Shown: piece after piece, positions 32,756-49,120 of the stretch
How the letters are laid out: the number at the start of each line of letters is the position of its first letter
How positions within the stretch are numbered: the stretch's first letter is position 1
Source: Synergistaceae bacterium
Lineage (GTDB): Bacteria > Synergistota > Synergistia > Synergistales > Aminobacteriaceae
Reading direction: 5' to 3'
DNA: 62,068 nt
Assembly (NCBI GenBank): GCA_031272035.1
Contig: JAISUO010000047.1
Coordinates: 1-62,068 of the forward strand
Translations under genes and position numbers: made by a program
The notes under the pieces: model-generated
What the model saw: the letters and a program-made list of their open reading frames with translations, nothing else
What the model was told of the DNA's origin: nothing
Database searches by the model: none

Positions 32756-33507
32756 GGCCGCACCTCCCTGTTTTCAAAGCGACACCGGTAAACTCCCGCT
32801 TCCACCTGTTCGGCAATTTTATCGAACCCGGCCTGATCGACGGACCGGAAACGAACCCACATGCCGGCTTTAAACAAAAAGGGATTTTCTTCCCTCATGT
32901 CAAAAATCCTCACCGGCGTCTTTCCGATGACGTTCCAGCCCGTTGGAGCTGTGATGGGGAAAACGATCGACTGATTTGCCCAAATAATGACGGCGCCTCC
33001 CTCGACCTTAAGACGCGGAGACTGTCTGCGGGGAATGGTCAGCCCGTTGTCGGACCCCAGGTACCCCATGCCGGGCGTGAATCCCATCATGTAGTTGAAA
33101 TTATCGTGAGCGGTATGGATATCGATAATTTCCTGCGGAGTTTTTTTGTGGTAAACGGCAACTTCATCAAGGTCGACTCCAAACTCACCTCCGTAAAGAA
33201 CGGGAATTTCACAGATTTCTTCCTTCGATAAGCTAAAAGAATAATCGAGATCCAAATTTTCAAAACGTTTTTTGCAAGCCTCCAGCAAAGCGCCATACCG
33301 AATGACATCAGGGCGATAATTTATCATAAGCGCCCGGTAGGTGGGCACCGTCTCGGCAATCCCCTCGACGGGATTGTCCTCAAGGCATTGTTTCAAAGCG
33401 TAAACCCTGCGGCTGACGGCTAAACTGATTTCATCTCCGACCTGTACGGACACCGCAGTGTCGCCAACCGGCAAAAAAGCTGCGTTCATCACCGTATCTC
33501 TGTTCAC
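32752..33507 (-). CDS. pxpB: 5-oxoprolinase subunit B (PxpB/KipI family)
   Basis: A 251-residue protein of the KipI/PxpB family (cyclophilin-like AHS1 domain), containing FLPVGDTAVSVQVGDEIS at the start and NFNYMMGFTPGMGYLG followed by IPRRQSPRLKVEGGAVIIW in the middle. PxpB, PxpC and PxpA together hydrolyse 5-oxo-L-proline to glutamate with ATP. The GTG start overlaps the pxpA stop (GTGA); an in-frame ATG at 33489 is an alternative. The stop overlaps the start of the fused pxpC by four bases, so the three subunits are translationally linked. Confidence 0.92.
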   Translation of the reverse strand: MNRDTVMNAAFLPVGDTAVSVQVGDEISLAVSRRVYALKQCLEDNPVEGIAETVPTYRALMINYRPDVIRYGALLEACKKRFENLDLDYSFSLSKEEICEIPVLYGGEFGVDLDEVAVYHKKTPQEIIDIHTAHDNFNYMMGFTPGMGYLGSDNGLTIPRRQSPRLKVEGGAVIIWANQSIVFPITAPTGWNVIGKTPVRIFDMREENPFLFKAGMWVRFRSVDQAGFDKIAEQVEAGVYRCRFENREVRP

Positions 33508-34274
33508 GCGACAAAGTCGTTCAGTTTTGCCACCTGAACACCCTCCGCCGTCAACGCGCTTCTGAGATTTTTAACGATTTCGACGGCCGTGGGCGTATCT
33601 CCATGTACGCACACCGAATGAACGGAAACGTCCACCACCTTGCCGGTGATGGTTTCGACCTTCCCCTCTTTGATCATGCGGATGATGCGTTTCGCGGCGA
33701 ATTCAGCGTCGTGGATCATGGCGCCCGGCTGGCTGCGCGGTACAAGGGTGCAGTCGTCCCGATAAGCGCGGTCCGCAAACACCTCGTTCGCGAAACGCAG
33801 GCCCATTTCCTGCGCTTTTCTGATAACCGCTCCATTCACGAAACTCAAAAGAATAATGTTTTTGTCCACTTCCGCCACCGCTTCGCAAATAGCGCGCGCC
33901 AGAATTTCGTCCTTGTTGGAGTCGTTTCCCATGGCGCCATGGGCTTTCAGGTGCTCTACCTTCACTCCGCTGGAGGCGGCGAAGGCCATTAACGCTCCCA
34001 ACTGGTACTTCACGCAGGCCTTCGCTTCCTCAAAGGACAGCTCCATATGCCGCCGTCCAAAGCCCATCAGGTCGGGATAGGAGGGATGCGCGCCCACCGC
34101 GACGCCCGCTTTGGCGCACATTTTCACCGTATTCTCCATAATGATGGGATCCCCCGCGTGCCATCCGCAGGCCATGTTGACGGAAGAGACGTGTTTAATG
34201 ATTTCGGAATCCATTCCCAGTTTATAAGCGCCGAAACTTTCTCCAAGGTCACTGTTCAGATCGATCTTATGCAT
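33504..34274 (-). CDS. pxpA: 5-oxoprolinase subunit A (PxpA/LamB-YcsF family)
   Basis: A 256-residue LamB/YcsF-family protein with the typical opening IDLNSDLGESFGAYKLG, SVNMACGWHAGDP, VGAHPSYPDLMGFGRR and, near the end, VCVHGDTP. In the PxpABC enzyme this subunit carries out the ring-opening step on phosphorylated 5-oxoproline. I start at ATG 34274; the frame is open for 22 more codons into the upstream gene but the family begins here and a GGAAGTGAG ribosome site precedes it. It overlaps the DUF1445 gene by eight bases and pxpB by four. Confidence 0.94.
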   Translation of the reverse strand: MHKIDLNSDLGESFGAYKLGMDSEIIKHVSSVNMACGWHAGDPIIMENTVKMCAKAGVAVGAHPSYPDLMGFGRRHMELSFEEAKACVKYQLGALMAFAASSGVKVEHLKAHGAMGNDSNKDEILARAICEAVAEVDKNIILLSFVNGAVIRKAQEMGLRFANEVFADRAYRDDCTLVPRSQPGAMIHDAEFAAKRIIRMIKEGKVETITGKVVDVSVHSVCVHGDTPTAVEIVKNLRSALTAEGVQVAKLNDFVA

Positions 34275-35106
34275 TGTGCTCACTTCCTTTTTTATAAACG
34301 GCTTCTTTACAGCCAAACAGTTTTTCTTCCAGTTCCTCATCTTTTATGTCCGCAACCAGCATACAGGCGGGGGTATGCGTGATCACCAGGTCGGGTTTGG
34401 CGTTCTCTATCGCCGCCTGAGGCGTCACACCGCAGGCCCAGAAAACGGGAACCTCCCCTTCGTTGAAGCGGGTTGGAACTCCCCAGTCCGGCTTATTCAG
34501 GTCTACACCGAGTTTGGAAGGGTCTCCATGATAGAGAGGCATCCCATGAACGTGCGGCAGTCTGCCCGTAACCTCGTAAGCCAGGTCCACCTTACTCTCC
34601 GGCACGGGACGCATGGTCGCGACGACGGGGCCCTTGAAAATACCCGCCGGGGCGCAGGGTATACAGGTTTTGTACACGGAAACCATGTGACCGTCGACGA
34701 TGTTGCGGATTTCAATGCCCGCTTTCGTCAGAGCGTTTTCAAACGAGAAGCTGCACCCGATCAGAAAGCAGACAAAGTCATTTTGCCAGCAGCCTGTAAT
34801 GTCATAAGGCTCGTCAACGAGGACGCCATTTCGAAAAACCCTGTAACGGGGAATATCCGTGCGAATGTCGGCATGATCCGCGATTTTTTTCAGAAAAGGA
34901 TCCCCCGGCTCCGTGATTTCCAGGATTGGGCAGGGTTTGGGGTTGCGCTCCGCGAATTTTCTAAAATCTTCCGCGTACTTTTGAGCTAAAATAACCAGAT
35001 TGGCCTGCACAAAACCGGAGCACATCCCCGAAGTTTCCCCGGTGATTTTTTGTTCCCGGATAAGCCGACGGAGGTCTTTTGGAGACATTTCAGCATAATT
35101 TGCCAT
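34267..35106 (-). CDS. DUF1445 / D-glutamate cyclase-like protein
   Basis: A 279-residue protein of the YcsI/DUF1445 family (annotated elsewhere as putative hydro-lyase; the mammalian relative is D-glutamate cyclase, which makes 5-oxo-D-proline). Typical features are TSGMCSGFVQANLVILA, WQNDFVCFLIGCSFSFENAL, IPCAPAGIFKGPVVATMRPV and VFWACGVTPQAAI. It sits directly upstream of pxpABC with an overlap of eight bases, which makes a role in glutamate/5-oxoproline interconversion likely. The start is ATG 35106, about nine bases after AGAGGG; a GTG three codons upstream is less well spaced. Confidence 0.88.
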   Translation of the reverse strand: MANYAEMSPKDLRRLIREQKITGETSGMCSGFVQANLVILAQKYAEDFRKFAERNPKPCPILEITEPGDPFLKKIADHADIRTDIPRYRVFRNGVLVDEPYDITGCWQNDFVCFLIGCSFSFENALTKAGIEIRNIVDGHMVSVYKTCIPCAPAGIFKGPVVATMRPVPESKVDLAYEVTGRLPHVHGMPLYHGDPSKLGVDLNKPDWGVPTRFNEGEVPVFWACGVTPQAAIENAKPDLVITHTPACMLVADIKDEELEEKLFGCKEAVYKKGSEHNA

Positions 35107-35157
35107 AACATACACCCTCTTTCAGGCAGGACACGATTCCTGGAGCTTTTGCGTTTA

Positions 35158-36345
35158 TTACGCCAGTTTTGCCAAAGCTCCCTCGATTCTCCTCATGCCC
35201 TCCTCCAAATTTTTCATGGAATTCGAGTAGGAAATTCTCACGTTGTCCGGAGCCTCGAAGGCCACGCCGGGCACAACGGAAACAAGCGCCTCTTCCAGCA
35301 GGTATTTGCAAAAATCGACGGAATTCTCGATTCGCCCGCCGTCGGGCGTTTTTTTGCCGTAATAGGAACTGACGTCCGGCATGAGGTAAAAAGCGCCCTC
35401 CGAGTTCGCGCAGGCGACGCCAGGCAACGCCCTGAGACGCTCTGCCATGTACAGCCGTCTTTGGGCAAACTCGGATTTCATTTCTTCGATGGACTGCTGA
35501 GAGCCCTTCAGCGCCGCCAGCGCGGCCCATTGCACGAAAGATGTGCTGTTTGAGGTCGTATGCCCCTGCAGGGAACGAATGGAAGCCGCCACATCGGAGG
35601 GCGACGCGCTGTATCCTATGCGCCAGCCTGTCATCGCGTAGGCTTTGGAAAAACCGTTGACGGTAATCGTATGTTCCCGAATGTCCTTCGATAAAGAAGC
35701 GATGCTGACGTGTCTGCTCTGTCCATAAATGAGTTTTTCATAGACTTCATCGGAAATGACGTAAAAATCGTGCTCCACAGCCATTTCTCCCAGTTCTCTC
35801 AGGGCCGCTTCGCCGTACACCGCTCCTGACGGATTGTTGGGAGTGTTGATGATCACGGCCCTGGTTCGGGGAGACAAAACCCGTCGAATGGCCTCGTTGT
35901 CAAGCTGAAAATCGGCGTCCGTTTCGACGAGAACCGGCGCGGCATCGGCCAGTTTTACGATTTCGACGTAACTGACCCAGCAGGGCTTTGGAATTATGAC
36001 CTCATCGCCGGGGTTGCAGATGGACAAAACGGCATTGTTCAGCGCCTGCTTGGCACCGGTGGAGACGACGATTTCGTCGGGCGCGTAAAAAACGCCGTTT
36101 TCCGTTTCGAGTTTCTCGCTGATGGCTTTACGGAGAGGCAGGATACCGTCCACCGCCGTGTATTTCGTTTCTCCCTTCAGCATGGCTTCCGCGCAGGCGT
36201 CAATGATGAAACGGGGCGTGTTAAAATCCGGCTCGCCTACATTGAAACCAATAATATTCCTGCCCTCGGCTCTGAGACGCGCCACCGTGCTGTTGATTTC
36301 CATGGTCGCGGAAGGAGTCATGCGCAGAACGCGTTCACTTTTCAT
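35158..36345 (-). CDS. Class I/II aminotransferase (aspartate aminotransferase-like)
   Basis: A 395-residue PLP-dependent aminotransferase. The Schiff-base Lys is K234 in NGFSKAYAMTGWRIGY; INTPNNPSGAVY (about 166-177) and SDEVYEKLIY (198-207) are the other PLP-binding signatures, and an Arg near the C-terminus (VRISYSNS) should bind the substrate carboxylate. It belongs to the subgroup I aspartate aminotransferases common in anaerobes. Between meaB and the 5-oxoproline genes, it most plausibly transfers the amino group of glutamate, giving 2-oxoglutarate for the KorDABC enzyme. Exact specificity is not visible. Confidence 0.93.
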   Translation of the reverse strand: MKSERVLRMTPSATMEINSTVARLRAEGRNIIGFNVGEPDFNTPRFIIDACAEAMLKGETKYTAVDGILPLRKAISEKLETENGVFYAPDEIVVSTGAKQALNNAVLSICNPGDEVIIPKPCWVSYVEIVKLADAAPVLVETDADFQLDNEAIRRVLSPRTRAVIINTPNNPSGAVYGEAALRELGEMAVEHDFYVISDEVYEKLIYGQSRHVSIASLSKDIREHTITVNGFSKAYAMTGWRIGYSASPSDVAASIRSLQGHTTSNSTSFVQWAALAALKGSQQSIEEMKSEFAQRRLYMAERLRALPGVACANSEGAFYLMPDVSSYYGKKTPDGGRIENSVDFCKYLLEEALVSVVPGVAFEAPDNVRISYSNSMKNLEEGMRRIEGALAKLA

Positions 36346-36392: not shown

Positions 36393-37388
36393 TCACGACT
36401 TACGATCATAAGCGGTTTTTATCCGCTCGACTTTCATTTGAACCCAGTCGAATGGATTGACGGTCCGGTTGTACATATCCGGCAGGCGCTCGTCCAAGTC
36501 CCGTTCCAGCGAAAACAGCCCGTCTATCAGCTTCGACGTTTCGTAACGCAGCAGAAGCAATATCTCCTCGCGGAGGCGTTTTCTTCGCAATTCTTCAAAA
36601 GTTTTCGAGGTATTTACCGCTTCCCGGTGCTTCAGAATGGTTTCCATCAATTCGACCACGCCCTCGCTCTGAAGAGCGGAGGTCAGGACAACGGGCGTCT
36701 TCCAGGTTTCGCTTCCGGACTCTCCGCTCAGTAACTGCGCGGCTCTCAGCATGTTCGCGAACTCCTCCGCACCCTCCCGGTCGGCTTTGTTGACGACCAG
36801 GACGTCAGCAATTTCGAGAATTCCCGCTTTCAGGGTCTGAACGTCATCCCCCAGGCCAGGGACCGAAACCACCAGGGTGGTGTCGGCGATTCGCGCGATT
36901 TCCACCTCCGACTGCCCCACTCCGACGGTTTCTATAAGGATGAAGGCGCACCCGCAGGCATCGAAGATCCGGATCGCGCTCAGGACGGATTCTGAAAGTC
37001 CTCCAAGGTGGCCCCTTGTGGCCATGCTGCGAATAAAGACGTTCTCGTCCAGAGTCAGGTCGTTCATCCGAATCCGGTCTCCCAGAATGGCGCCCCCGGA
37101 AAAGGGGCTGCTGGGATCCACGGCGACGATGCCGATTTTTTGGCCGTCTTTTCTCAATAATTTGGCCAATTTATCGGTCAGGGTACTTTTACCGGAGCCC
37201 GGAGGCCCCGTGATCCCTATCAGCCAGGCGCGACCCGTCTTCGCGTAAACTCGCCTCGATATCTCAAGGCACATTTCAGGGTCGTTCTCCGCAAGCGTTA
37301 TCAACTTCGAAACCGCCCTGCGATTCGCGGAAAAGGCGTCTTTCAAAAGTTTTTCCAGACCCGGGCCGTCGGCCTTTCGTCCATTCAT
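36393..37388 (-). CDS. meaB: MeaB-type GTPase, chaperone of methylmalonyl-CoA mutase
   Basis: A 331-residue G3E-family GTPase that loads and protects adenosylcobalamin on methylmalonyl-CoA mutase. Walker A is GPPGSGKST (61-69), followed by VAVDPSSPFSGGAILGDRIRM, ETVGVGQSEVEIA and the base-recognition NKADREGAEE. It starts two bases after the mutase small-subunit stop, so the mutase and its GTPase are made together. Length and motifs are as expected for MeaB/ArgK. Confidence 0.95.
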   Translation of the reverse strand: MNGRKADGPGLEKLLKDAFSANRRAVSKLITLAENDPEMCLEISRRVYAKTGRAWLIGITGPPGSGKSTLTDKLAKLLRKDGQKIGIVAVDPSSPFSGGAILGDRIRMNDLTLDENVFIRSMATRGHLGGLSESVLSAIRIFDACGCAFILIETVGVGQSEVEIARIADTTLVVSVPGLGDDVQTLKAGILEIADVLVVNKADREGAEEFANMLRAAQLLSGESGSETWKTPVVLTSALQSEGVVELMETILKHREAVNTSKTFEELRRKRLREEILLLLRYETSKLIDGLFSLERDLDERLPDMYNRTVNPFDWVQMKVERIKTAYDRKS

Positions 37389-37390
37389 TT

Positions 37391-37804
37391 TTATTGCTGA
37401 AGCCGCTTCTGTTCCACGGCTTTCTTCACCCAGGCCACCGCTTCCCGGCTTGGCGTTCCCGGAGTAAAAACTTCGGCGATGCCGTTTTCCTTCAGGAACG
37501 GAATGTCCTTATCGGGAATGACGCCGCCTCCGATGACGAGAATATCCTGTCCTTCCCGCTCTCTGAGACACTGCACAACGCGGGGGAAGAGAGTGTTGTG
37601 CGCGCCGGAGAGAATGCTCATGGCGACCACGTCCACGTCTTCCGCCGTGGCAGCGGCCGCGATTTGCTCGGGTGTCTGACGAAGGCCCGTGTAGATAACC
37701 TCGAACCCCGCGTCGCTCATGGCCTTGGCGATAATTTTCGCGCCGCGGTCATGTCCGTCCAGCCCCGGTTTTGCAACTAAAATTCGAATTTTGTCTTCCG
37801 ACAT
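37391..37804 (-). CDS. Methylmalonyl-CoA mutase small (cobalamin-binding) subunit
   Basis: A 137-residue B12-binding protein. The signature is [18 protein letters not shown], in which D16-x-H18-xx-G21 provides the lower axial His of cobalamin; [12 protein letters not shown] and [13 protein letters not shown] supply the other binding loops. It is a separate polypeptide, the split form used by archaea and many anaerobes, and lies 38 bases downstream of the large-subunit gene. With it, it rearranges succinyl-CoA and (R)-methylmalonyl-CoA. Confidence 0.95.
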
Positions 37805-37842: not shown

Positions 37843-39504
37843 TCAAATGGTTTTGACCGCTTCATACTCGCCGAAGATTTTTCGCATGCTGTCACAGATT
37901 TCGCCCAGTGTGGCGTATGATTTCACCGCCCGCAGAATGAACGGCATGAGGTTGACTTTTTCGTCCCGGCAGGCCGCGGAAAGGGCTTCGAGGGCCGCCT
38001 GACATTCCACGTTATCCCGGCGGTTCATCAGGGCCTTCTTCTTTTCGATCTGAATCTCCTGTACGACGGGATCCACCGAAGTCAAATCCACATCGGCCCG
38101 GTCGTTGCCGGTGAATTTATTCACCCCGATAACCGTCTTCTTTCCGTCCTCGACAGCCATTTGCTGAACATAGGCGCTCTTCGAAATTTCGTTCTGCATC
38201 CATCCGCGTTCGATGGCCGCCACCGCTCCGCCCATATCGATAATTTTTTGAATCAGGGATTCGGCGTCGCTCTCGAACCGGTCCGTCATGTTTTCAATGT
38301 AATAGGAGCCGGCAAGGGGATCGACCACGTCCGCCGCCCCGCTTTCGTAAGCGATGATTTGCTGGGTTCGAACGGCCAGCGTCGCGGACTCTTCCGTGGG
38401 AATCGAAAGCGCCTCGTCGAACGCGCAGGTCGCCATTGAATTCGTCCCGCCCATGACCGCGCCCAAGGCCTGCAACGAAACGCGAATCACGTTGTTGAGG
38501 GGCTGCTGGGCGGTTAAAACGCTCCCGGATGTATGTACATGAACGCGCAGCATCCAGGAAGACGGCTTTTTCGCCCCGAACCGCTCCCTGAGAATTTTTG
38601 CCCAAAGCCTTCTCGCGGCGCGAAATTTCGCCACTTCCTCCAGCAGCCGGATGTCTGCCGTGAAGATCCATGAAATACGCCCCGCGAAGTCGTCGATGTC
38701 CAGTCCGGCGTCGATGGCGGTCTGGATGTATTCAATGGCGTTGGCGAAGGCAAAAGCGATCTCCTGCGTCGGGGTCGCGCCGGCCTCGCGGATGTGGTAC
38801 GCGCCGAGGCTTATGGTGTTCCAGTTCGGGATGACGTTTTTGCAGTACTCAAAAATATTGGCGGTCAGGCGCATCGAAGGGCGCGGGGGATAAATGTAGG
38901 TGCCTCGCGCGATATATTCCTTGAGGACGTCATTCTGCGTGGTGCCCCTGAGCTTATCCGGGGCGACGCCCTGTTTTTCTCCCACTGCCTGATACATGGC
39001 CAGCATCACCGCCGCCGGCGAGTTGATGGTCATCGACGTGCTGACCTTATCGAGAGGGATGCCCTCGAACAGAGCTTCCATGTCCTCCAGAGAGTCGATG
39101 GCCACTCCGACTTTGCCGACCTCCCCGTCGCTGAAAGGGTGATCGGAATCGTAACCGATTTGCGTCGGCATATCGAACGCGACGGAAAGGCCCGTCACCC
39201 CCTGCTTCAGCAAATAACGGAAACGCTCGTTCGTTTCTTTGGCGGTCGCGAATCCCGAATAACTGCGCATGGTCCAGAACCGTCCCCTGTACATGGTGGC
39301 CTGGCCTCCGCGGGTCATCGGATACTGACCAGGAAACCCGATCTTCTTCACATAACCCTCGTAAGACGTATCGACGTCCAACGGCGTATAAATTCTCCCG
39401 TCCTGAAGATTTTCCCGTTCAGGCGTTTTGGCCAGAGCTTTGGCCAGCGGCCCCTCCTGCCATTCCTGCCTGGCTTTTTCAAGAATATGCACGTCGTTCT
39501 CCAT
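37843..39504 (-). CDS. Methylmalonyl-CoA mutase large (catalytic) subunit
   Basis: A 553-residue TIM-barrel subunit. Recognisable segments are GFPGQYPMTRGGQATMYRGRFWTMRSYSGFA (shown in part by YPMTRG and YSGFA), SVAFDMPTQIGYDSDHP, MTINSPAAVMLAMY and NIFEYCKNVIPNWNTISLGAYHIREAGAT, all typical of the acyl-CoA mutase alpha chain. It lacks the C-terminal cobalamin domain, which is encoded separately just downstream. Residues such as YSGF and the R in MRSYSG favour a methylmalonyl-CoA rather than isobutyryl-CoA mutase, and the gene context (Kor, MmdA) agrees. Confidence 0.94.
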   Translation of the reverse strand: MENDVHILEKARQEWQEGPLAKALAKTPERENLQDGRIYTPLDVDTSYEGYVKKIGFPGQYPMTRGGQATMYRGRFWTMRSYSGFATAKETNERFRYLLKQGVTGLSVAFDMPTQIGYDSDHPFSDGEVGKVGVAIDSLEDMEALFEGIPLDKVSTSMTINSPAAVMLAMYQAVGEKQGVAPDKLRGTTQNDVLKEYIARGTYIYPPRPSMRLTANIFEYCKNVIPNWNTISLGAYHIREAGATPTQEIAFAFANAIEYIQTAIDAGLDIDDFAGRISWIFTADIRLLEEVAKFRAARRLWAKILRERFGAKKPSSWMLRVHVHTSGSVLTAQQPLNNVIRVSLQALGAVMGGTNSMATCAFDEALSIPTEESATLAVRTQQIIAYESGAADVVDPLAGSYYIENMTDRFESDAESLIQKIIDMGGAVAAIERGWMQNEISKSAYVQQMAVEDGKKTVIGVNKFTGNDRADVDLTSVDPVVQEIQIEKKKALMNRRDNVECQAALEALSAACRDEKVNLMPFILRAVKSYATLGEICDSMRKIFGEYEAVKTI

Positions 39505-39526: not shown

Positions 39527-40696
39527 TCAAATAATGCCGTTTCGAGAAAAGGACGCGATTTCTTCCTTTGTGTAACCCAATTCCGTCAGAATTTTCTCGT
39601 TGTGTTCGCCGAGTTTGGGGGCCGTCGTCTCAAGGCGGCCCGGCGTTTCAGATAGCTTTATGGGCTGGCCCAACTGCCGGTAGCGTCCCAGCTCGGCGTC
39701 TTCCACGTCCACGACCAGCTCATTTTCGACAACATGCGGATCTTCGAAAACCTCATCCAGGTTTTTGATTGGCGTTATGCAGGTCTCGCGTCCCTCGAGC
39801 TTTTGGAGCCATTCATTCAGCGTATGTTCCCTGAACGTCGATTCCAGCAGATTTTTGAGCGCCGGAAAATTTTTTTTGTCGTCGATGGCGTCCGAAAGGT
39901 CTTCCCGGCCAAGGACGCCGCAGAGGTTCTTCCAGAATTTCTTTTCAAGAGCTCCGCAGGCGAGGTACCGGCCGTCTTTTGTGCGATAAATGTTATAGTG
40001 AGGCCAGCCGCCGGTCAAACGGCCTTCGCCTCGCGTGGGAATCCCTCCCCCTCCGAAAAGAACGCTGGCATCCGCGGGCAGCATGGCGATCGCCGCCGAA
40101 AAAAGAGACGCGTCCACCTGCTGACCCCGACCGGTGACGCCGCGCCCCTGAAGGGCCACAAGAATCCCGATGACGGCCATGAGACCGCCCGCGAGGTCGG
40201 CGATCTGTATTCCCGGAATGACCGGATCGCCGGTGGGTTTTCCCGTCAGGGAAGGAATGCCGGCGGAGCCGACGTAGTTCAGGTCGTGCCCCGCCTCCAT
40301 CCGGTAAGGCCCCGTCTGTCCGTAACCGCTCAGCGAACAGAACACGAGCCTCGGATTGAGCTCAGACAGCGCCTCGTAGTCCAGTCCCAGTTTTTTCATA
40401 ACGCCCGGGCGGAAGCTCTCGATCACGACGTCGGCGTTTCGGGCCAGTTTGCGAAAAATCTCTTTTCCTTCCGGTTTTTTCAAATCAAGCGTCAGACTTT
40501 TCTTGTTTCTGTTGATGATAAGAAAGCGGTATCCCCTGTCGCCGCGCATGGGCTCGTAACCCCGGGCATAGTCTCCTTCGCCGGGCTGCTCCACTTTAAT
40601 GACCTCGGCTCCGAAGTCCGCCAGGAACATCGTCGCGAAAGGCCCCGGCAGGAGCCGCGTCAGATCGAGAACTTTTATTCCCTCAAGAGCGTTCAT
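39527..40696 (-). CDS. CaiB/BaiF family protein with alpha-methylacyl-CoA racemase catalytic residues
   Basis: A 389-residue family III CoA-transferase fold (LEGIKVLDLTRLLPGPFATMFLADFGAEVIKVE at 4-36 in part, NRNKKSLTLDLK, SLSGYGQTGPY). Three positions match the proton-transfer residues of alpha-methylacyl-CoA racemase as I remember them from M. tuberculosis MCR (H126, D156, E241): H137 in AGHDLNY, D167 in QIADLAGG, 30 residues apart as in MCR, and E251 in GALEKKFW. True CaiB/Frc transferases keep the Asp but lack the GHDxNY His. In this operon it could epimerise methylmalonyl-CoA, for which no dedicated epimerase gene is present. The ATG at 40696 follows GAGGAG. A CoA-transferase role remains possible. 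Confidence 0.85.
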   Translation of the reverse strand: MNALEGIKVLDLTRLLPGPFATMFLADFGAEVIKVEQPGEGDYARGYEPMRGDRGYRFLIINRNKKSLTLDLKKPEGKEIFRKLARNADVVIESFRPGVMKKLGLDYEALSELNPRLVFCSLSGYGQTGPYRMEAGHDLNYVGSAGIPSLTGKPTGDPVIPGIQIADLAGGLMAVIGILVALQGRGVTGRGQQVDASLFSAAIAMLPADASVLFGGGGIPTRGEGRLTGGWPHYNIYRTKDGRYLACGALEKKFWKNLCGVLGREDLSDAIDDKKNFPALKNLLESTFREHTLNEWLQKLEGRETCITPIKNLDEVFEDPHVVENELVVDVEDAELGRYRQLGQPIKLSETPGRLETTAPKLGEHNEKILTELGYTKEEIASFSRNGII

Positions 40697-40770
40697 TTTT
40701 TCTCCTCGCAGAATCAATATATAAGTGTATTGGAAATCAGCTTGTTTCTCTGTCTTTTTTCATACTTTTT

Positions 40771-42222
40771 TCATATTTTTTTCATGCTTCCCGTTTCGCG
40801 GAAACGTCTGTGCCACTCGAAACAGCTCTCCAGCATTTGAGGTTCATGACCTCCGACGCGTTCAACGCTTTCCCTCAGATAACGGAAAAGCTCTTCTTTA
40901 TAGACAGGGCTCGCGCAGTTTTCGATGACGGCGGCTGCGCGCTCCACGGGCGTTTTGCTCCGCAGGTCGGCTACTCCGTCGTCGGTGACGAGGACGTCGA
41001 TATAATGCGCGCTGATGTCCTGCACCGTCACCTTCGGGACGATTCTTGAGATGTCGCCGTTTTTTCCGGCGGAGGGCAGAAGCATTATGGAAAGGCCCGC
41101 GTTATGGGCGAACGTGGTTCCTCCGCCCGTTCCGTTCACCACCCGGCTTCCCATCGCGTGGCTGAGGTTGGCGTTACCGTAAATATCGACCTCCACAGCG
41201 CTGTTCATCGAAATAATTTGCATACGGTCGATAATTTCAGCACAGTTGTTCACTTCGAGGGGACGCAGAACGATTCGTTCTCTGTATCCCCGGGGATCGG
41301 AAGCGAAAATATCTCTGACTTTCCTGGTCGTGTGGACGGAACATCCGGAGGCGCAAATCGCCTGCCCGCTCGCCAGAAGCTCGACGTTGGCCTCCTGCAG
41401 AAGGCCGCAGAAAAACTCCAGATCCCTGAAATCGGTTTTTTGAAGCAATTTGACCAGGCTGTTGGCCATGTTCCCGATTCCGGACTGAATGGGGGGAAAC
41501 TTCTTCCACCGCCGCCGGCGACGCTCCAGCTCCAGAAAGTTGAAAAGGTTGTCCGCAAGTTTTTTGACGGACTCGTCCGGTTCTTTATAGGCTGCGTCCA
41601 CGCCGGGCTTTTCCGTTTCCACGACGCCGATGACTTTCCGGGGGTCGAAGGACAACCCGAAGCTGCCGATGCGCTCTCCCACGCGGCGCAGGGGAATCGG
41701 CGCTTTTCCGGGTCCGGTTTCAGGCCGGTAAATATCGTGCATTCCCTCCAGTTCCTTCGCCTGCGTGGAGTTGATCTCAATGAGAATCTGTTCGGCATGA
41801 TCGACAAAGAGCGGACTGAGCCCGACTCCGGAGGTCAGGATCAGCTCATCGCCGGAAGTGACGCGCAGCGCTTCGATAACGGCCACGTCGATTTTTCCCA
41901 GAGAACCGTTTCTCACCGCGGGGGCGACGCGGGAGAGGGGCATCTCCACAAATTCGATCCGGCCTTTGTTGACCGCCGCCGCACATACGGGCGTCATCTG
42001 GAACGGCGTCAGTCTTTTCACGATGCCGGCCTCCACGCACTCCGATTCGATTTCGGTTCCAAGATTCGAGCTGTTCAGAAGGTTGATCTGAATTGAGTCG
42101 CCCCTTTTTCCCCGTTCGGCCAAAGCGTGCAGAATGGCCTTCGGGTACCCGGCCGCGGCAAAACCGCTGGTCGCCACGGTCATGCCGTCGTGGATCAGCG
42201 CCGCGGCGTCTTCCGCGGACAT
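40771..42222 (-). CDS. Acetyl-CoA hydrolase/CoA-transferase family protein (Cat1/AarC-like) lacking the catalytic Glu
   Basis: A 483-residue family I protein similar to succinate/propionate CoA-transferases: TSGFAAAGYPKAILHAL at the N-terminus, PIQSGIGNMANSLV in the middle and the C-terminal VTDDGVADLRSKTPVERAAAVI. In the family the covalent glutamate sits in a WTEVLQD/YTEVIQD-like segment about 25 residues after the QSGxGN motif; here this reads FFCGLLQEAN, with Gly (residue 273) in place of Glu. Either the enzyme is inactive, works without the usual glutamyl-CoA intermediate, or has another role. The start is ATG 42222 after AAGGAG. It lies between the kor genes and the CaiB-family gene. 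Confidence 0.85.
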   Translation of the reverse strand: MSAEDAAALIHDGMTVATSGFAAAGYPKAILHALAERGKRGDSIQINLLNSSNLGTEIESECVEAGIVKRLTPFQMTPVCAAAVNKGRIEFVEMPLSRVAPAVRNGSLGKIDVAVIEALRVTSGDELILTSGVGLSPLFVDHAEQILIEINSTQAKELEGMHDIYRPETGPGKAPIPLRRVGERIGSFGLSFDPRKVIGVVETEKPGVDAAYKEPDESVKKLADNLFNFLELERRRRRWKKFPPIQSGIGNMANSLVKLLQKTDFRDLEFFCGLLQEANVELLASGQAICASGCSVHTTRKVRDIFASDPRGYRERIVLRPLEVNNCAEIIDRMQIISMNSAVEVDIYGNANLSHAMGSRVVNGTGGGTTFAHNAGLSIMLLPSAGKNGDISRIVPKVTVQDISAHYIDVLVTDDGVADLRSKTPVERAAAVIENCASPVYKEELFRYLRESVERVGGHEPQMLESCFEWHRRFRETGSMKKI

Positions 42223-42279
42223 GAGTTTCTCCTTCATTCGATTACAGCGGCCGGAAGACATGCGCGCCTCATCTCCGTC

Positions 42280-42831
42280 TCATCGCTTCCGCAGGGCCTT
42301 CGCGGCCTCGAAGCCCGCGTCGAACGCCTTTTGATTGACCTCGTGCAGCGAAGGGGGAAAACGCTGAGCGATGGCCTTACGAACGGATTCGGCCCCGACA
42401 AATTCTCCCAAAGCGACAATCGCCCCCATGGCGACGACGTTTGCCGTGATGTCCCTGCCCGTAACTGTTTGAGCGATTTCCGTCATGGGAATGGAATAAA
42501 CCCTTTCAATTCCCTCCGGCAGAGAACGGACGAACGCCGGATCCACCAGCAGGATGCCCTTCGCGCCCAGGTCTCCGCAATATTTGTCGCAGGCCTGCTG
42601 CGTCATGGCGAGGAGCAGGTCCAAGCTCTGAGCTTCCGGATAGTTGATGGGCGAGTCGTCGATAATGAGTTCGGACCGGCACGCGCCGCCCCGCGACTCC
42701 GGACCGTAGGATTTGGTCAGGATGATTTCCATGTTTTCGTAACTGCCGGCGGCTTCGGCGAAAATATCCCCAAGGAGCATCATGCCCTGGCCCCCCGATC
42801 CGCTGAATCGAATCTCATAATGCCTCGACAT
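42280..42831 (-). CDS. korC: 2-oxoacid:ferredoxin oxidoreductase gamma subunit (KorC-like)
   Basis: A 183-residue gamma subunit with IRFSGSGGQGMMLLGDIFAEAA at the N-terminus and KSYGPESRGGACRSELI, both typical for the domain that joins alpha and beta chains in this enzyme family. It is two bases after korB and is the last gene of korDABC. The complex oxidises a 2-oxoacid to the acyl-CoA with reduction of ferredoxin. In this neighbourhood 2-oxoglutarate is the likely substrate. Confidence 0.93.
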   Translation of the reverse strand: MSRHYEIRFSGSGGQGMMLLGDIFAEAAGSYENMEIILTKSYGPESRGGACRSELIIDDSPINYPEAQSLDLLLAMTQQACDKYCGDLGAKGILLVDPAFVRSLPEGIERVYSIPMTEIAQTVTGRDITANVVAMGAIVALGEFVGAESVRKAIAQRFPPSLHEVNQKAFDAGFEAAKALRKR

Positions 42832-42833
42832 TT

Positions 42834-43676
42834 TTATTCCTCTTCCTTCGCGTTTTTGATGAGGACGTCGTACTGCTCCGTGTACTCGGGCAGGTTCGTG
42901 CGGTTCACAAACTCGCCTGTAATGATTTTGCCGCTCAACTCGTCCGGGGTCATGTTTTTCGCCTGCGCAGCCGTGATGAAACGCGTCTTTTTGTCCGCCA
43001 GCATGGCCACCGCGTCGCCCAGTTTGTTGATGCGTCCGAAAAGGGTCGGGCAGTCGCAGATGGCCTCGACGACGGAAAATCCCCTGTGATTCAGGGCTTT
43101 TTCAAATTGACTGACCATCATGGTCGCGTTGGCGATGGTCGAGCGCGCCACATAGGTTGCGCCGGATGTCGCGGCAAGGGAGCAGATATCGAAATTGGGC
43201 TCGATATTTCCATACACGGACGTTTTGGTTCTGGCGTTCACAGGGGTGGTCGGCGAATATTGTCCGCCGGTCATTCCATAGTTGGCGTTGTTGAAAACGA
43301 CGGTGGTGATGTCAATGTTTCTCCGGCAGGCATGAATGAAATGATTGCCCCCAATCGACGTGCAGTCTCCGTCTCCCGTCAGGACAATGACCTTCAGTTC
43401 CGGGTTGTGCATTTTAACTCCGGTGGCGTAGGCCAGCGCCCGGCCGTGGTTGGTGTGCATGCCGCAGAAATTCATGTAGCCGTTGGCGCGGCTGGAGCAT
43501 CCGATTCCGGCGACCAGAACGATTTTGTCCTGCTCAAGCCCCGTTTTATCGATCGCGTGAAGCAGGGCGTTGACGACCGTCCCGTTGCCGCACCCGGGAC
43601 ACCAGATATGAGGCAGTTTATCCTGACGCAGATATTTGTCGAAAATATGTTCTTTTCTTTCAGTACGCTCAGTCAT
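42834..43676 (-). CDS. korB: 2-oxoacid:ferredoxin oxidoreductase beta subunit (KorB-like)
   Basis: A 280-residue thiamine-diphosphate-binding subunit. IWCPGCGNG (24-32) gives iron-sulfur/ThDP region cysteines, VIVLTGDGDCTSIGGNHFIHACRRNIDITTVVFNNANYGMTGGQ (in part GDGD and NNANYGMTGGQ) is the ThDP-Mg motif. These features match the 2-oxoglutarate type (KorB) better than pyruvate oxidoreductases. The start overlaps the korA end by eight bases. Confidence 0.94.
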   Translation of the reverse strand: MTERTERKEHIFDKYLRQDKLPHIWCPGCGNGTVVNALLHAIDKTGLEQDKIVLVAGIGCSSRANGYMNFCGMHTNHGRALAYATGVKMHNPELKVIVLTGDGDCTSIGGNHFIHACRRNIDITTVVFNNANYGMTGGQYSPTTPVNARTKTSVYGNIEPNFDICSLAATSGATYVARSTIANATMMVSQFEKALNHRGFSVVEAICDCPTLFGRINKLGDAVAMLADKKTRFITAAQAKNMTPDELSGKIITGEFVNRTNLPEYTEQYDVLIKNAKEEE

Positions 43677-44811
43677 TTGTCTGAAGCTCCCTGATCGTCG
43701 TCAAAATCTTTTGCGCGGAGATGATTTTTCCGTTATTCTGCGTCACGCGCCTTACATTCGTCCCGCCGGCGGACTCTCTCACCATGTGAAAAAGTTGTCC
43801 TTCGTTCATTTCGCATGTGACGATGGTTCTGACCTGCCCGGCCAGTTCGGCAAGGCGACGTTCCGGGAACGGCCAAAGCGTTATGGGGCGCAGCAAACCA
43901 ACCCTGATGCCCTCGTTTCTGGCCTGGTCGATGGCGGCTTTGGCGGAGCGGGACACCATGCCGACGGCGGAGAGAAGGATTTCGGCATCCTCGGTTCTGT
44001 ACTCTTCGTATTTCTCGATATCGCCGCGGTTGTTTTCAACTTTGGAGAGCAGCCTCCTGATTTGAAGTCCAATCTGTTCCGGTTCATTCGTAACCGGAAA
44101 ACCCGTTTCATCGTGAATGATGCCGCTCACATACCATTTGTAACCGTCACCGAATTTTGCCATGGGAGGAACTCCCGTTCCGTCGTCCTGATAGGGCTTA
44201 TAATCGTTTTTCGCGCAGGTGGGAGTCTTTCTGTTGACGATTTCGTACTCCTTCGCCTCCGGAATGCGAACTCGCTCGCTCATGTGGGCCAGCATCGCGT
44301 CTGAAAGGATGTGGACCGGCGTGCGGTATTTTTCGGCGAGGTTGAAAGCCCGTATCGTCTCGACGTAAACCTCTCCCACCGACGCGGGGGCCAGAGCGAT
44401 CACGGGATGGTCCCCGTGGGTTCCCCATTTCGTCTGCATGAAATCTCCCTGGGCCGGAGCCGTTGCAACGCCCTGGCAGGGTCCCTGACGCATCACGTCG
44501 ACGATAACGATGGGAACTTCCGCGATAATGGCGAATCCCAGATTTTCCTGCATCAGAGAAATTCCCGGACCGCTGGTCGCCGTCATCGCTTTCGCTCCCG
44601 CAAACGAGGCGCCGATCACAGCCGCGATCGAGGCAATCTCGTCCTCCATCTGCATAAACTTTCCATCTTTTTTGGGCAGGAGGGCAGAGGCGATTTCCGC
44701 GATTTCGGTCGCCGGCGTAATGGGGTATCCGGCGAAAAAATTCATCCCCGCGACGACAGCGCCGCGCACACAGGCCTCGTTTCCCGTCATAATCGCAAAA
44801 CGATCTTCCAT
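43669..44811 (-). CDS. korA: 2-oxoacid:ferredoxin oxidoreductase alpha subunit (KorA-like)
   Basis: A 380-residue alpha subunit with GNEACVRGAVVAGMNFFAGYPITPATEIAE near the N-terminus (GYPITPATE is the substrate-side signature), MQMEDEIASIAAVIGAS, and TATSGPGISLMQENLGFA. The C-terminal third holds domain II (LLRPITLWPFPERRL, VTCEMNEGQLFHMVRE). It follows korD by eight bases. The length is that of separate KorA/VorB chains, not the fused KorA with N-terminal gamma. Confidence 0.94.
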   Translation of the reverse strand: MEDRFAIMTGNEACVRGAVVAGMNFFAGYPITPATEIAEIASALLPKKDGKFMQMEDEIASIAAVIGASFAGAKAMTATSGPGISLMQENLGFAIIAEVPIVIVDVMRQGPCQGVATAPAQGDFMQTKWGTHGDHPVIALAPASVGEVYVETIRAFNLAEKYRTPVHILSDAMLAHMSERVRIPEAKEYEIVNRKTPTCAKNDYKPYQDDGTGVPPMAKFGDGYKWYVSGIIHDETGFPVTNEPEQIGLQIRRLLSKVENNRGDIEKYEEYRTEDAEILLSAVGMVSRSAKAAIDQARNEGIRVGLLRPITLWPFPERRLAELAGQVRTIVTCEMNEGQLFHMVRESAGGTNVRRVTQNNGKIISAQKILTTIRELQTND

Positions 44812-45233: not shown

Positions 45234-46505
45234 TCACAGGCCCAGCAAATTTGGAAGCCCCGTGACTAAAGCGGGAATGTAGGTAATCAGAAAGAGAACA
45301 ATCAAAATAGGGATCAGCATATAACAAAGGTCGCGAAGCATATCGCGCAGGGTGATCTTCGCAATGCCGGCCGCGACAAAGAGACAAACGCCAAGCGGCG
45401 GCGTGCACATGCCGATGGTCAGGTTGACGGCGACCACAACGCCGAAATGAATCAGGTCGATATGATACGCCTGCACCAGCGGCAGAAACAGCGGCACAAA
45501 GATCGTTATCGCGCTGATCGTGTCGATAAACGTGCCGGCGATCAGGAGAACGACATTCATCAAAAGCAACGCCGCCCACTCCGTGTGCACGATCGTCTGC
45601 AACAACGCCGTCACCTGCTGCGGTATCATCTGAATCGTCATAAACCAGATGAAAAGGCTGGCCGTCATCAAAACCGTCAGGATGATTCCGTTCTGAATCG
45701 CCGCGTCGACCATGGCGTTCCACATGCTTTTCCAGCTCAGCTCCCGATAGACCAGCCCGCCGACGATAATTGCGTAAGCGACGGCTGCGGAGGCCGATTC
45801 GGTAGGCGTGAAAACGCCTGAGACGATACCGCCGATGATGATGATCGGCATGATCAGCGCGAGAATCGCGTCTCCAAAATCCTTTGCCACCTCGCGCCAG
45901 GTGCTTTTCCCCGCTTTTCCCACATAGCCCCTCTTTTTACTGATGATGTAGTTGGTGACCATGATCAGAAGACCCATCAGAAGACCGGGGACCACTCCGC
46001 CCATAAAGAGCTTCGCGATTGAGCAGCTGACCATGACGCCATACACCACAAGAGGAATGCTGGGCGGGATGATCGGGCCTATGGAGCCGGATACGGAGAC
46101 GAGCGAAGCCGCATATGCCCTTGAATAGTTCTGACTGACCAGTTCGCTCATCAAAATTCCTCCGATGGCTGCAGTCGCGGCAATCGCGGAGCCGGTGACC
46201 GCCGCGAAGATCATGGACGCAAGCACGACGACCATGCCAAGTCCGCCAGGCATGTGTCCCACCAGCGTCTGGGCGAAGTTCGTGATTCTGCGGGATATTC
46301 CCCCCGCCGCCATCAGGTTGCCGGCCAGCATGAAAAGAGGAATCGCGATAAACGTGATGTTATCGATGCCGGTAAACATCCGCTGTACAATAATCTCCAT
46401 CGGGATGGTGGCGCCCAAAAGCCCCAGCAGCGTCGTGAAGCCCAGCGAAAAAGCGATGGGCGTACCGATAAGAAAGATGCCGAACAGGACGAATACCCAA
46501 ATCAT
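45234..46505 (-). CDS. dctM: TRAP transporter large permease (DctM family)
   Basis: A 423-residue polytopic protein with about 12 membrane segments, the Na+-coupled transport subunit of a TRAP system. The conserved parts include IPLFMLAGNLMAAGGISRRI, ATAAIGGILM, VSGSIGPIIPPSIPLVVYG and a C-terminal FGVVVAVNLTIGMCTPPLGVCLFVAAGIA. It overlaps dctQ by four bases. The SBP gene dctP lies before dctQ, giving dctP-dctQ-dctM. A 207-base gap follows, with a weak GATC-containing hairpin and short T-run that might terminate transcription. Confidence 0.94.
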   Translation of the reverse strand: MIWVFVLFGIFLIGTPIAFSLGFTTLLGLLGATIPMEIIVQRMFTGIDNITFIAIPLFMLAGNLMAAGGISRRITNFAQTLVGHMPGGLGMVVVLASMIFAAVTGSAIAATAAIGGILMSELVSQNYSRAYAASLVSVSGSIGPIIPPSIPLVVYGVMVSCSIAKLFMGGVVPGLLMGLLIMVTNYIISKKRGYVGKAGKSTWREVAKDFGDAILALIMPIIIIGGIVSGVFTPTESASAAVAYAIIVGGLVYRELSWKSMWNAMVDAAIQNGIILTVLMTASLFIWFMTIQMIPQQVTALLQTIVHTEWAALLLMNVVLLIAGTFIDTISAITIFVPLFLPLVQAYHIDLIHFGVVVAVNLTIGMCTPPLGVCLFVAAGIAKITLRDMLRDLCYMLIPILIVLFLITYIPALVTGLPNLLGL

Positions 46506-46999
46506 ATCCCAGCCCCTCCTTCACCGGAGGATACCGCTTTGTCCCTCAAAAAAAGCATCCTGTACGTATCGATCGCCAGCGCGGCGATCATCACCGTCGA
46601 CACTACGGGAAACACCGCGTATACATAGCTCATGGGAAATTCCAGATACGGCGTATATTGATCGGTATTGGCCAGTATGAACGGAATGCTGTATCGCAGG
46701 ACGGCGATTAAAAAAACGCACATGATGACGTTGGAGACGACCCCGAAAATATAACGCTTTTTCTCAGGAATGAACTGGAGCGCCACATCGATGTTCAGAT
46801 GAGCCTTCCGGATAATGCCGACGCAGCTTCCGCAGAAAACGGAAAAAATGAAGCAGATGCGGATGACGTCGGTCGACCAGGGGATCGACATGTCGAAAAC
46901 ATACCGCTGCAAAACCTGCACAAACGAGACGACAAATATGACGATAAGACAAACGCCGCCAATGACGGCAAAGATACGATCCATTTTCCCCACTGACAA
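46502..46999 (-). CDS. dctQ: TRAP transporter small permease (DctQ family)
   Basis: A 165-residue protein with four membrane segments; the second half of segment one to two contains YVFDMSIPWSTDVIRICFIFSVFCGSCVGIIRKAHLNID (in part WSTD and AHLNID), the DctQ signature. Together with DctM it forms the membrane part of the transporter. The ATG at 46999 is 100 bases from dctP, and the gap contains a strong terminator-like hairpin. Confidence 0.92.
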   Translation of the reverse strand: MSVGKMDRIFAVIGGVCLIVIFVVSFVQVLQRYVFDMSIPWSTDVIRICFIFSVFCGSCVGIIRKAHLNIDVALQFIPEKKRYIFGVVSNVIMCVFLIAVLRYSIPFILANTDQYTPYLEFPMSYVYAVFPVVSTVMIAALAIDTYRMLFLRDKAVSSGEGGAGI

Positions 47000-47027
47000 T
47001 CACCCCAAATCTTCCAGGTCGGCCTCA

Positions 47028-47082
47028 ATAAAAAAATAAAAAAGATGAGGCGGCTGCCGACAGTCCGGCAGATCTCCGCCTC
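47028..47082 (-). terminator. Intercistronic terminator/attenuator between dctP and dctQ
   Basis: On the minus strand GAGGCGG (47082-47076) pairs with CCGCCTC (47053-47047) and CTGCCG pairs with CGGCAG inside it, with a 4-base bulge, giving about 13 GC-rich pairs. A long T-rich run (ATCTTTTTTATTTTTTT) follows directly. Its place between the binding protein and the permeases suggests partial termination that keeps DctP in excess. Confidence 0.8.
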
Positions 47083-47099
47083 CTGCAAACAACGATATT

Positions 47100-48092
47100 T
47101 TACTTCGGCGCCTTTGCGGCCTCGCTTCTGAGCAGCGCGACAAGTTCTGCCGGCACGTTGTCGAGGTTCTTTTCGAACCCTTTCGTTATCTCCACAAACG
47201 CCTCTATATCCGGATGTTCTTCCACGATGGTGCCGGCTTTTTTGATGACTTCGAGACGCTCCTGCTCAAGCTGTTCGAGTTTCGCGACCTGGAATTTTCC
47301 GGCCTCAAGCGCCGCTTCTTTTATGATCTTCTGATGCTCCGCGCTGAGGGCATTGAACCATTTGGGATTGGCCAAAACGGCAGTGGGCTCGTAGGTGTGA
47401 GCGTCAAGCGAAAGATACTTCTGCACTTCGTAAAATTTGGAGGAGTAGATTGTGGAGATCGGATTCTCCTCCCCGTCCACGACCTTCTGCTGAAGCGAGC
47501 TGTAAAGCTCCCCAAACGCGATCGGCGTAGGAATGCCGCCAAGCAGCTTGATGAGCTCCATCCATCCCTTGGACTCCATTACGCGGATCTTGAGTCCCTT
47601 CAGGTCGGCCGGCGTCTTAATGGGACGCGTATTGTTGGTGAAATGCTTGAATCCCATCTCCCACCAGTCGAGATTGATGAACCCCTTCGCGTTGACGAGT
47701 TCCGTCATTTTCTGCCCAAACGGGCCGGAATACACGGCGGCCACCTGTTTGCGGGTATGCAGCACGTAAGGAAGTCCGAATATGGCCGTCTCCGGGACAA
47801 AACTCGGCAACGCGCCGCCCGCCGAGATCGTCGTCATTTCCATGGTCCCCATGCGCACGCCCTCGATGGCATCCCGTTCGCTGCCCAGCTGACCCGACGG
47901 GAATATCTGGACGGTAATCTCCTTCCCGGAACGCTCCTCCACGAGTTTTTTAAACTGCTCCAGCGCAATCTGGTACTGGTGCTCGGTGCTGCCGGCGTGC
48001 GCCACCCTTATCTGCACCGCGGCGAAAGCGCCGCCGCACGAAAAGAGCAAAACCGCCGCTGTCAACGCAAAAAACTTCGCATACTTCTTCAT
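47100..48092 (-). CDS. dctP: TRAP transporter substrate-binding protein (DctP family)
   Basis: A 330-residue periplasmic protein with a signal peptide (MKKYAKFFALTAAVLLFSCGGAFAAVQIRVA in outline, cleavage near AFA-AV). The family features are IRVAHAGSTEHQYQIALEQFKKLVEE, GSERDAIEGVRMGTMEM and LKIRVMESKGWMELIKLLGGIPTPIAFGELYSSLQQKVVDGEENP, with the Arg of KIRVMES as the expected carboxylate ligand. DctP proteins bind organic acids; Bordetella DctP6/DctP7 relatives are known to bind pyroglutamate, which would match the 5-oxoprolinase genes downstream. A minus-strand TATAAT at 48115-48110 may be its own promoter. Confidence 0.94.
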   Translation of the reverse strand: MKKYAKFFALTAAVLLFSCGGAFAAVQIRVAHAGSTEHQYQIALEQFKKLVEERSGKEITVQIFPSGQLGSERDAIEGVRMGTMEMTTISAGGALPSFVPETAIFGLPYVLHTRKQVAAVYSGPFGQKMTELVNAKGFINLDWWEMGFKHFTNNTRPIKTPADLKGLKIRVMESKGWMELIKLLGGIPTPIAFGELYSSLQQKVVDGEENPISTIYSSKFYEVQKYLSLDAHTYEPTAVLANPKWFNALSAEHQKIIKEAALEAGKFQVAKLEQLEQERLEVIKKAGTIVEEHPDIEAFVEITKGFEKNLDNVPAELVALLRSEAAKAPK

Positions 48093-48181: not shown

Positions 48182-49120
48182 TTAAAATGAACTTACTTCA
48201 AGTTGAAGACCGGTTTTTCTGATAAGGCGTCCGAGCAGAAAATCCACATCATCTTTCGTTCCCGCTGAAAGCGCGGCCACCGGTTCGCGCTGCGCCGCAT
48301 GGGCAATCAATCCCCGTTTGCACAGCACATATTTACGTATGGCGATTCCAATTTTCGGCTGCCCCTCATAGCGCAAATAGGGCAGATGCGCGTCGTATAA
48401 ATCCTGAAATTCGCTTCTTTTCCCACTTTCCACAAGCTTCAGACCTTCCACCAGGAACTCGGGAAAAGGATAGCCCGTCATGGCGCCCGACGCCCCCGCG
48501 GCGTATTCACAGTCCAGGGAAAGCCCGCCATTTCCGCCGAAAATCGGGATATTTCTCATGGAGCCTTCTCTCTTAAACTGATTCAGCGTTCTGAGTTTAT
48601 CCATCCCCGGCCAGTCCTCGTTTTTGATTGCCACGCAGGATTCGTTCCGGTTGACGATTTCCCGCAGGACGTTCGGCGTAAAAACGACCTGATGAACGAG
48701 GGGATAATCCTGAATCACGAAAGGAACGCCGGATCCCAGAGTTCTGGCGACGCAATCGAAATATTCGATAATCTGGGCGTCGCTGCGCAGGTGAGAAGGA
48801 GGCGCTATCTGAACGCCGCCGGCGCCGGCCGCCATTGCGTTCAAGGCGGTGCGTCTCATCGAGGCGAATCCGGGAGAGCTTGCTCCCACAATGATTTCCA
48901 ATCCGCCGGAGTGTTGGACGAACTCCCGAATCACAGCGTCCGTTTCGTCGCAGTCCAGTTTTGTGGCTTCACCGAGCAACCCCAGAATCGTTATGCCGGC
49001 CACTCCGACATTTTTATAAAAGCGGCAAAGCCTGGCGATCGAAGCAAAATCGATCGCTCCGTCCGGCAGGAAGGGCGTCGGAGAGATCGGGAAAACACCC
49101 CTCGTTTCTGTGGAAAGCAT
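48182..49120 (-). CDS. Dihydrodipicolinate synthase/N-acetylneuraminate lyase family protein
   Basis: A 312-residue Schiff-base aldolase fold. The catalytic Lys lies in SCVAIKNEDWPGM and the Tyr in VPFVIQDYPLVHQ; GVAGITILGLLGEATKLD near residue 35-52 is the pyruvate-binding region. It is not in a lysine pathway context; it stands between a class V aminotransferase and the DctPQM transporter and probably cleaves or makes a keto acid related to the transported compound. The exact reaction cannot be assigned. Confidence 0.87.
   Translation of the reverse strand: MLSTETRGVFPISPTPFLPDGAIDFASIARLCRFYKNVGVAGITILGLLGEATKLDCDETDAVIREFVQHSGGLEIIVGASSPGFASMRRTALNAMAAGAGGVQIAPPSHLRSDAQIIEYFDCVARTLGSGVPFVIQDYPLVHQVVFTPNVLREIVNRNESCVAIKNEDWPGMDKLRTLNQFKREGSMRNIPIFGGNGGLSLDCEYAAGASGAMTGYPFPEFLVEGLKLVESGKRSEFQDLYDAHLPYLRYEGQPKIGIAIRKYVLCKRGLIAHAAQREPVAALSAGTKDDVDFLLGRLIRKTGLQLEVSSF

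Follow-up and report, generated by a model that had tools for sequence, protein, structure and literature searches.

Glycine at the catalytic glutamate position of a class I-fold CoA-transferase: a possible route to CoA transfer without a covalent enzyme intermediate

One gene in the window (the whole stretch of 62,068 nucleotides that was analysed) encodes a CoA-transferase of the AarC/Cat1 type in which glycine occupies the position of the catalytic glutamate (Table 1). Textbooks define class I CoA-transferases by their covalent glutamate. The substitution is real and rare, and the protein, hereafter the Gly-type protein, is probably functional. Our leading, though tentative, reading is that it is an active acyl-CoA:carboxylate CoA-transferase which retains the AarC/Cat1 fold, dispenses with the covalent glutamyl intermediate and lets the carboxylate of the substrate attack the thioester directly; we infer activity, mechanism and substrates alike.

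Table 1 Features of the Gly-type gene and of the surrounding gene run, with positions in the window
Feature	Position	Strand	Basis
Gly-type CoA-transferase, 483 aa (acetyl-CoA hydrolase/transferase, Cat1/AarC type)	40771..42222	minus	Pfam, PDB matches, model
Probable ribosome-binding site AAGGAG, six bases before ATG 42222	42229..42234	minus	sequence
QSGIG (residues 246-250), QxGhG mobile loop, kept	41473..41487	minus	HMMER map; PMC11659651, PMC4876117
Gly273, codon GGC, at place of AarC catalytic Glu294	41404..41406	minus	HMMER residue map
Glu277, codon GAG (AarC Asp298), candidate relocated carboxylate	41392..41394	minus	alignment
Asn326 = AarC Asn347 (internal oxyanion hole), kept	41245..41247	minus	HMMER map
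Gly367 = AarC Gly388 (external oxyanion hole), kept	41122..41124	minus	HMMER map
Thr370; Asp in 95/95 Glu-type members	41113..41115	minus	alignment
Asp414 (AarC Glu435); Glu in 95/95 Glu-type members	40981..40983	minus	alignment
DHDPS/NAL-family aldolase or dehydratase, head of run	48182..49120	minus	family scan, solved relative
TRAP transporter DctM, DctQ, DctP	45234..48092	minus	family scan (DctP only); DctM, DctQ by position and sequence
2-oxoacid:ferredoxin oxidoreductase gamma, beta, alpha (KorCBA type)	42280..44811	minus	family scan
Class III CoA-transferase (CaiB/SUGCT-like)	39527..40699	minus	family scan, alignment
Methylmalonyl-CoA mutase large subunit	37843..39504	minus	family scan
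Methylmalonyl-CoA mutase B12-binding subunit	37391..37804	minus	family scan
MeaB GTPase	36393..37388	minus	family scan
Aspartate-type aminotransferase	35158..36345	minus	family scan
D-glutamate cyclase family protein	34267..35115	minus	family scan
PxpA (33504-34340) and PxpB (32752-33507), 5-oxoprolinase subunits	32752..34340	minus	family scan
PxpC fused to methylmalonyl-CoA decarboxylase alpha (MmdA) domain, one 841-aa frame	30230..32755	minus	family scan

The reading frame is intact from its ATG at 42222 to its stop at 40771 on the minus strand, with a GC3 typical of the operon. Both Pfam domains, AcetylCoA_hydro (PF02550) and AcetylCoA_hyd_C (PF13336), scored above cut-off, and the best matches in the PDB were 2g39 (E 8e-108) and AarC (E ~1e-88, 35% identity). 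An AlphaFold model built with 40 aligned sequences as input reached a mean pLDDT of 94, and its top structural match by Foldseek was AarC-E294A (TM 0.97, rmsd 1.6). In both Pfam domains and in overall fold the product is therefore an AarC/Cat1-type class I CoA-transferase, one that misses the cut-offs of the ScpC/YgfH succinate CoA-transferase families TIGR03458 (507.5 vs 658.7) and NF053853 (483.1 vs 500).

An earlier note on this DNA had placed Gly273 where the catalytic glutamate belongs and proposed an alignment with AarC and further relatives; the position is borne out. A residue map based on the HMMER alignment sets AarC E294 exactly on G273, is in register at the surrounding landmarks (N347 = N326, G388 = G367, V270 = I249, QSGVG = QSGIG) and recovers the published AarC residues E294, N347, G388, V270 and R228 in its numbering. 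The catalytic column of 97 aligned family members holds Glu in 95 and Gly in two, the window protein and a protein of an uncultured Oscillibacter (L061, CAJFNE010000046.1), so that almost no relatives share the glycine. A single sequencing error was ruled out as its source, because GAA or GAG to GGC requires two base changes and L061 also has GGC.

For this column, relatives were taken from each of the 188 genomes of the phylum of this bacterium and, around the Oscillibacter genome, from 350 genomes of its family, 391 of its class and 299 of its phylum. L061 itself was found by an exact scan of 84,980 species with a degenerate Gly motif, blind to Gly proteins with different flanking residues, which matched 29 stretches with L061 as the only family member. 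The remaining 187 genomes of the phylum yielded no Gly-type orthologue, a single-sequence scan of genome contigs gave no match, nor did the viral contigs scanned, and plasmid relatives were at most 41% identical.

The active site around the glycine has been rebuilt as well. Both Gly proteins depart from the 95 Glu-type members at positions that never vary among these (D93E, H95P/Q, E273G, S368G, D370T/G, E414D) and at two that are nearly invariant (F380M, D277E), with E273G, D277E, S368G, E414D and D93E being identical swaps in the two; H400 and E405 are replaced in the window protein only and retained in L061. Kept in both are Asn326, Asn340, Glu344, Gly367 and the QxGhG loop. Acetate in AarC is bound by Ser71, Thr94 and Arg228 (PMC4876117), which correspond here to Asn53, Met76 and Val208, three positions that also vary among Glu-type members. 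With the oxyanion and QxGhG residues kept while the AarC acetate ligands are replaced, the CoA side of the protein is conserved and the acid side is not. The statement in the earlier note that the rest of the fold is intact holds for the backbone, but not for the active site, where D93, H95, S368, D370, E414, H400 and E405 are all replaced. AarC-E294A is described as inactive (PMC4876117), and loss of the glutamate alone therefore leaves no working enzyme.

The two Gly proteins come from different phyla and are 46% identical overall. L061 shares with the window protein the glycine, the FFCG-x-LQEAN motif and the remodelled active site, and the best-conserved 21-residue windows between them (265-288, 361-381 and 401-429) reach 71-76% identity; the mean identity of the Glu window is 41% in 1,390 Glu-type pairs of 42-50% overall identity. 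In the tree the two pair with an SH-aLRT of 99, and the terminal branch of the window protein is the longest (1.08). After removal of the active-site segments they still pair (SH-aLRT 92, long branches), and each is then nearest in identity to some Glu-type protein. The pair may share a single Gly ancestor, with the active site held and the remainder of the protein drifting, or may have converged on a similar rebuilt site, as the drop in support from 99 to 92 and the long branches without the active-site columns would allow. Either history would speak for function, and the same glycine within a similarly rebuilt, best-conserved active site of a diverged protein argues against catalysis lost by drift.

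The gene belongs to a same-strand run in the order DHDPS-family aldolase, TRAP transporter, oxoacid:ferredoxin oxidoreductase, Gly-type gene, class III CoA-transferase, mutase, MeaB, aminotransferase, D-glutamate cyclase family, PxpA, PxpB and PxpC-MmdA. The established roles of these families suggest a route from glutamate or 5-oxoproline through 2-oxoglutarate, succinyl-CoA and methylmalonyl-CoA to propionyl-CoA. Within this run the Gly-type gene occupies the position that the propionyl-CoA:succinate transferase has in the E. coli Sbm/Scp operon. The DHDPS-family protein at its head, with a close solved relative (3dz1, E 4.5e-100) named only dihydrodipicolinate synthase, might help to define the imported substrate. 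The PxpC-MmdA fusion is unusual and would link oxoproline use to propionate formation. The class III CoA-transferase is closest to succinate-hydroxymethylglutarate CoA-transferase (SUGCT), and the Asp of its ADLAGG motif aligns with the SUGCT Asp, so that CoA transfer in the operon does not depend on the Gly-type gene alone. Its relatives in the other genomes of the phylum do not exceed 43% identity, and for this reason the operon may have been horizontally acquired. Methylmalonyl-CoA epimerisation by an intramolecular CoA swap was dropped as a role for the Gly-type protein because a methylmalonyl-CoA epimerase gene is present elsewhere in the genome and a four-membered malonic anhydride would be strained.

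The neighbours of L061 are an acylating aldehyde dehydrogenase, an Fe-alcohol dehydrogenase, a PEBP-like protein and a TRAP transporter, the transporter type being the sole feature common to both clusters; the mutase and decarboxylase set of the window operon is missing there. Neighbours that differ in this way suggest that the two proteins have a chemistry in common and not a partner. For the Oscillibacter cluster, a role in sulfoacetate metabolism was rejected, its aldehyde dehydrogenase scoring under the SauS cut-off (465 vs 600). An HMG-CoA lyase family gene (L162:9655-10554, minus strand) lies near L061, with a LacI-type regulator on the opposite strand in between, and recalls the transferase-plus-lyase logic of citrate lyase.

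The direct-attack reading would account for these observations as follows. The mobile QxGhG loop and the two oxyanion positions are retained, and so is CoA binding on this reading; with the Glu side chain gone and the acid-binding pocket rebuilt, the substrate's own carboxylate would fill the vacated space. Direct attack of this carboxylate on the acyl-CoA thioester would give an anhydride, mixed or internal, to be opened in turn by the CoA thiolate. On a class I chassis, this would amount to a ternary-complex mechanism like that of CitF or to the intramolecular transfer proposed for ThnP. The operon slot, beside mutase, MeaB and decarboxylase, is the one that the propionyl-CoA:succinate transferase (ScpC/YgfH) has. 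Counting for it are the recurrence of the glycine with a rebuilt site, the conservation of the active-site segments, retention of the CoA side, the CitF and ThnP precedents, and the operon context and GC3. Counting against it are the inactive AarC-E294A, an adjacent class III enzyme that could meet the whole need of the pathway for CoA transfer, the loss of Asp370, the mere two known members of the Gly type, the great distance of CitF with its shifted register in the two-sequence comparison, and the presence of E269 near the ThnP site.

A rival reading is a non-transferring binder of CoA or acyl-CoA, a pseudoenzyme serving for example as operon regulator or scaffold while the class III neighbour carries out transfer. 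In its favour, the CoA-side residues are retained whereas the nucleophile and the AarC acetate ligands are lost; an apparently intact class III transferase adjoins, and the mutant AarC-E294A is inactive (PMC4876117). We nevertheless regard a binder as unlikely, since two distant proteins share specific new active-site residues in the segments best kept of all regions, and since their neighbours, the TRAP transporter apart, differ, which suggests common chemistry over a common partner. The earlier note had left the choice between a changed mechanism and a non-transferring binder; the second Gly protein, the conserved rebuilt site and the CitF and ThnP precedents fit a changed mechanism better, and the retained CoA-side residues leave room for a binding role.

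The best structural rival, because Asp277 became Glu in both Gly proteins, is a relocated nucleophile, in which the catalytic carboxylate moved to Glu277 within the same loop (TEVLQD to CGLLQE) and the enzyme would still be covalent and class I. Glu at 277 occurs in none of the 95 Glu-type members (Asp in 91), and its extra methylene could lengthen the reach. In the model, however, residue 277 begins a helix four residues past Gly273, a usual place for a helix-capping Asp, so its side chain may face away from the thioester, and the aligned CitF position carries no acidic residue in 10 of 10 sequences. We rate this relocation as a little more doubtful than a binder.

Less probable by a clear step is an acyl-CoA hydrolase, in which water would take the place of the glutamate and free acid would be released. 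The family name includes hydrolases, glycine should enlarge the pocket, and a Glu to Asp change in glutaconate CoA-transferase reportedly gives a hydrolase; yet nothing that could act as a new general base is visible, with Asp370 and His400 both lost in this protein, and for an energy-limited fermenter a thioesterase would presumably be a waste of the CoA bond. Slightly less probable again is a decaying gene that lost its glutamate by drift once the class III enzyme took over, as the long terminal branch and the lack of orthologues in the other 187 genomes of the phylum might suggest, but the intact frame, the ribosome-binding site, the operon-typical GC3 and the preferential conservation of active-site segments with L061 speak against it.

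We also consider it possible, with less confidence than the direct-attack reading itself, that the Gly-type proteins represent a class I-fold lineage with independently evolved class II-like chemistry, in which Glu became Gly and the carboxylate of the acceptor acid serves as nucleophile in intermolecular transfer, so far in this bacterium and one Oscillibacter only. A natural lineage that kept the CoA surroundings but replaced the glutamate would reveal how a Glu-less type resembling citrate lyase could emerge from class I enzymes, and substrate-assisted anhydride chemistry could be tested on it. The catalytic residue is worth checking in genes annotated as succinyl-CoA:acetate CoA-transferase.

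With AarC and the Cat1/ScpC/YgfH family the Gly-type protein shares the full-length fold, the QxGhG loop and the Asn347 and Gly388 equivalents, and it differs in the catalytic glutamate, D93, H95, S368, D370, E414 and the acetate ligands. Like ScpC/YgfH, it is encoded in one run with methylmalonyl-CoA mutase, MeaB and decarboxylase. The variant has partial precedent in CitF and ThnP. CitF, the class II alpha subunit of citrate lyase, works with no covalent intermediate on the enzyme (PMC9196870); it belongs to the same CoA-transferase superfamily, and each of 10 CitF sequences from this phylum carries Gly in the aligned column, although CitF is very distant (20-23% aligned identity in the profile alignment). 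A Glu-type-only profile places the catalytic Glu on the CitF Gly and a whole-family alignment gives the same register; this register rests on the larger profiles, because the two Gly proteins by themselves yielded a profile whose alignment to CitF was displaced in this region and scored lower. In 5 of 10 CitF sequences position 414 is Asp, but unlike the window protein CitF retains the Asp equivalent to 370, lacks an acidic residue at 277 (0/10) and works together with partner subunits on a thioester of an acyl carrier protein. The 483-residue protein scored 25.6 vs 501.45 against TIGR01584 and 29.6 vs 27 against PF04223, the latter over a C-terminal stretch only. No acyl carrier protein or lyase subunits occur among the operon ORFs scanned; CitF-type genes lie elsewhere in the genome, with at least three above the family cut-off (G000 contigs C97 (L150), C34 and C11).

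ThnP (N47_E41340, FR695877.1), from culture N47, is an active enzyme reported to pass CoA from one carboxylate to another within a single substrate, a reaction for which its authors propose an internal anhydride; their model also puts a glutamate, E269, near the site in a topologically similar place (PMC11659651). It is likewise a class I enzyme of the Cat1 subgroup with the QxGhG loop and, going by its description, Gly at the catalytic position, but it is shorter (46.5 kDa tagged), uses a cyclohexane dicarboxylate and belongs to a naphthalene degradation operon (PMC11659651). Removal of the glutamate to make room for a substrate carboxylate would be the simplest account to cover CitF, ThnP and, as we infer for this last case, the Gly-type protein.
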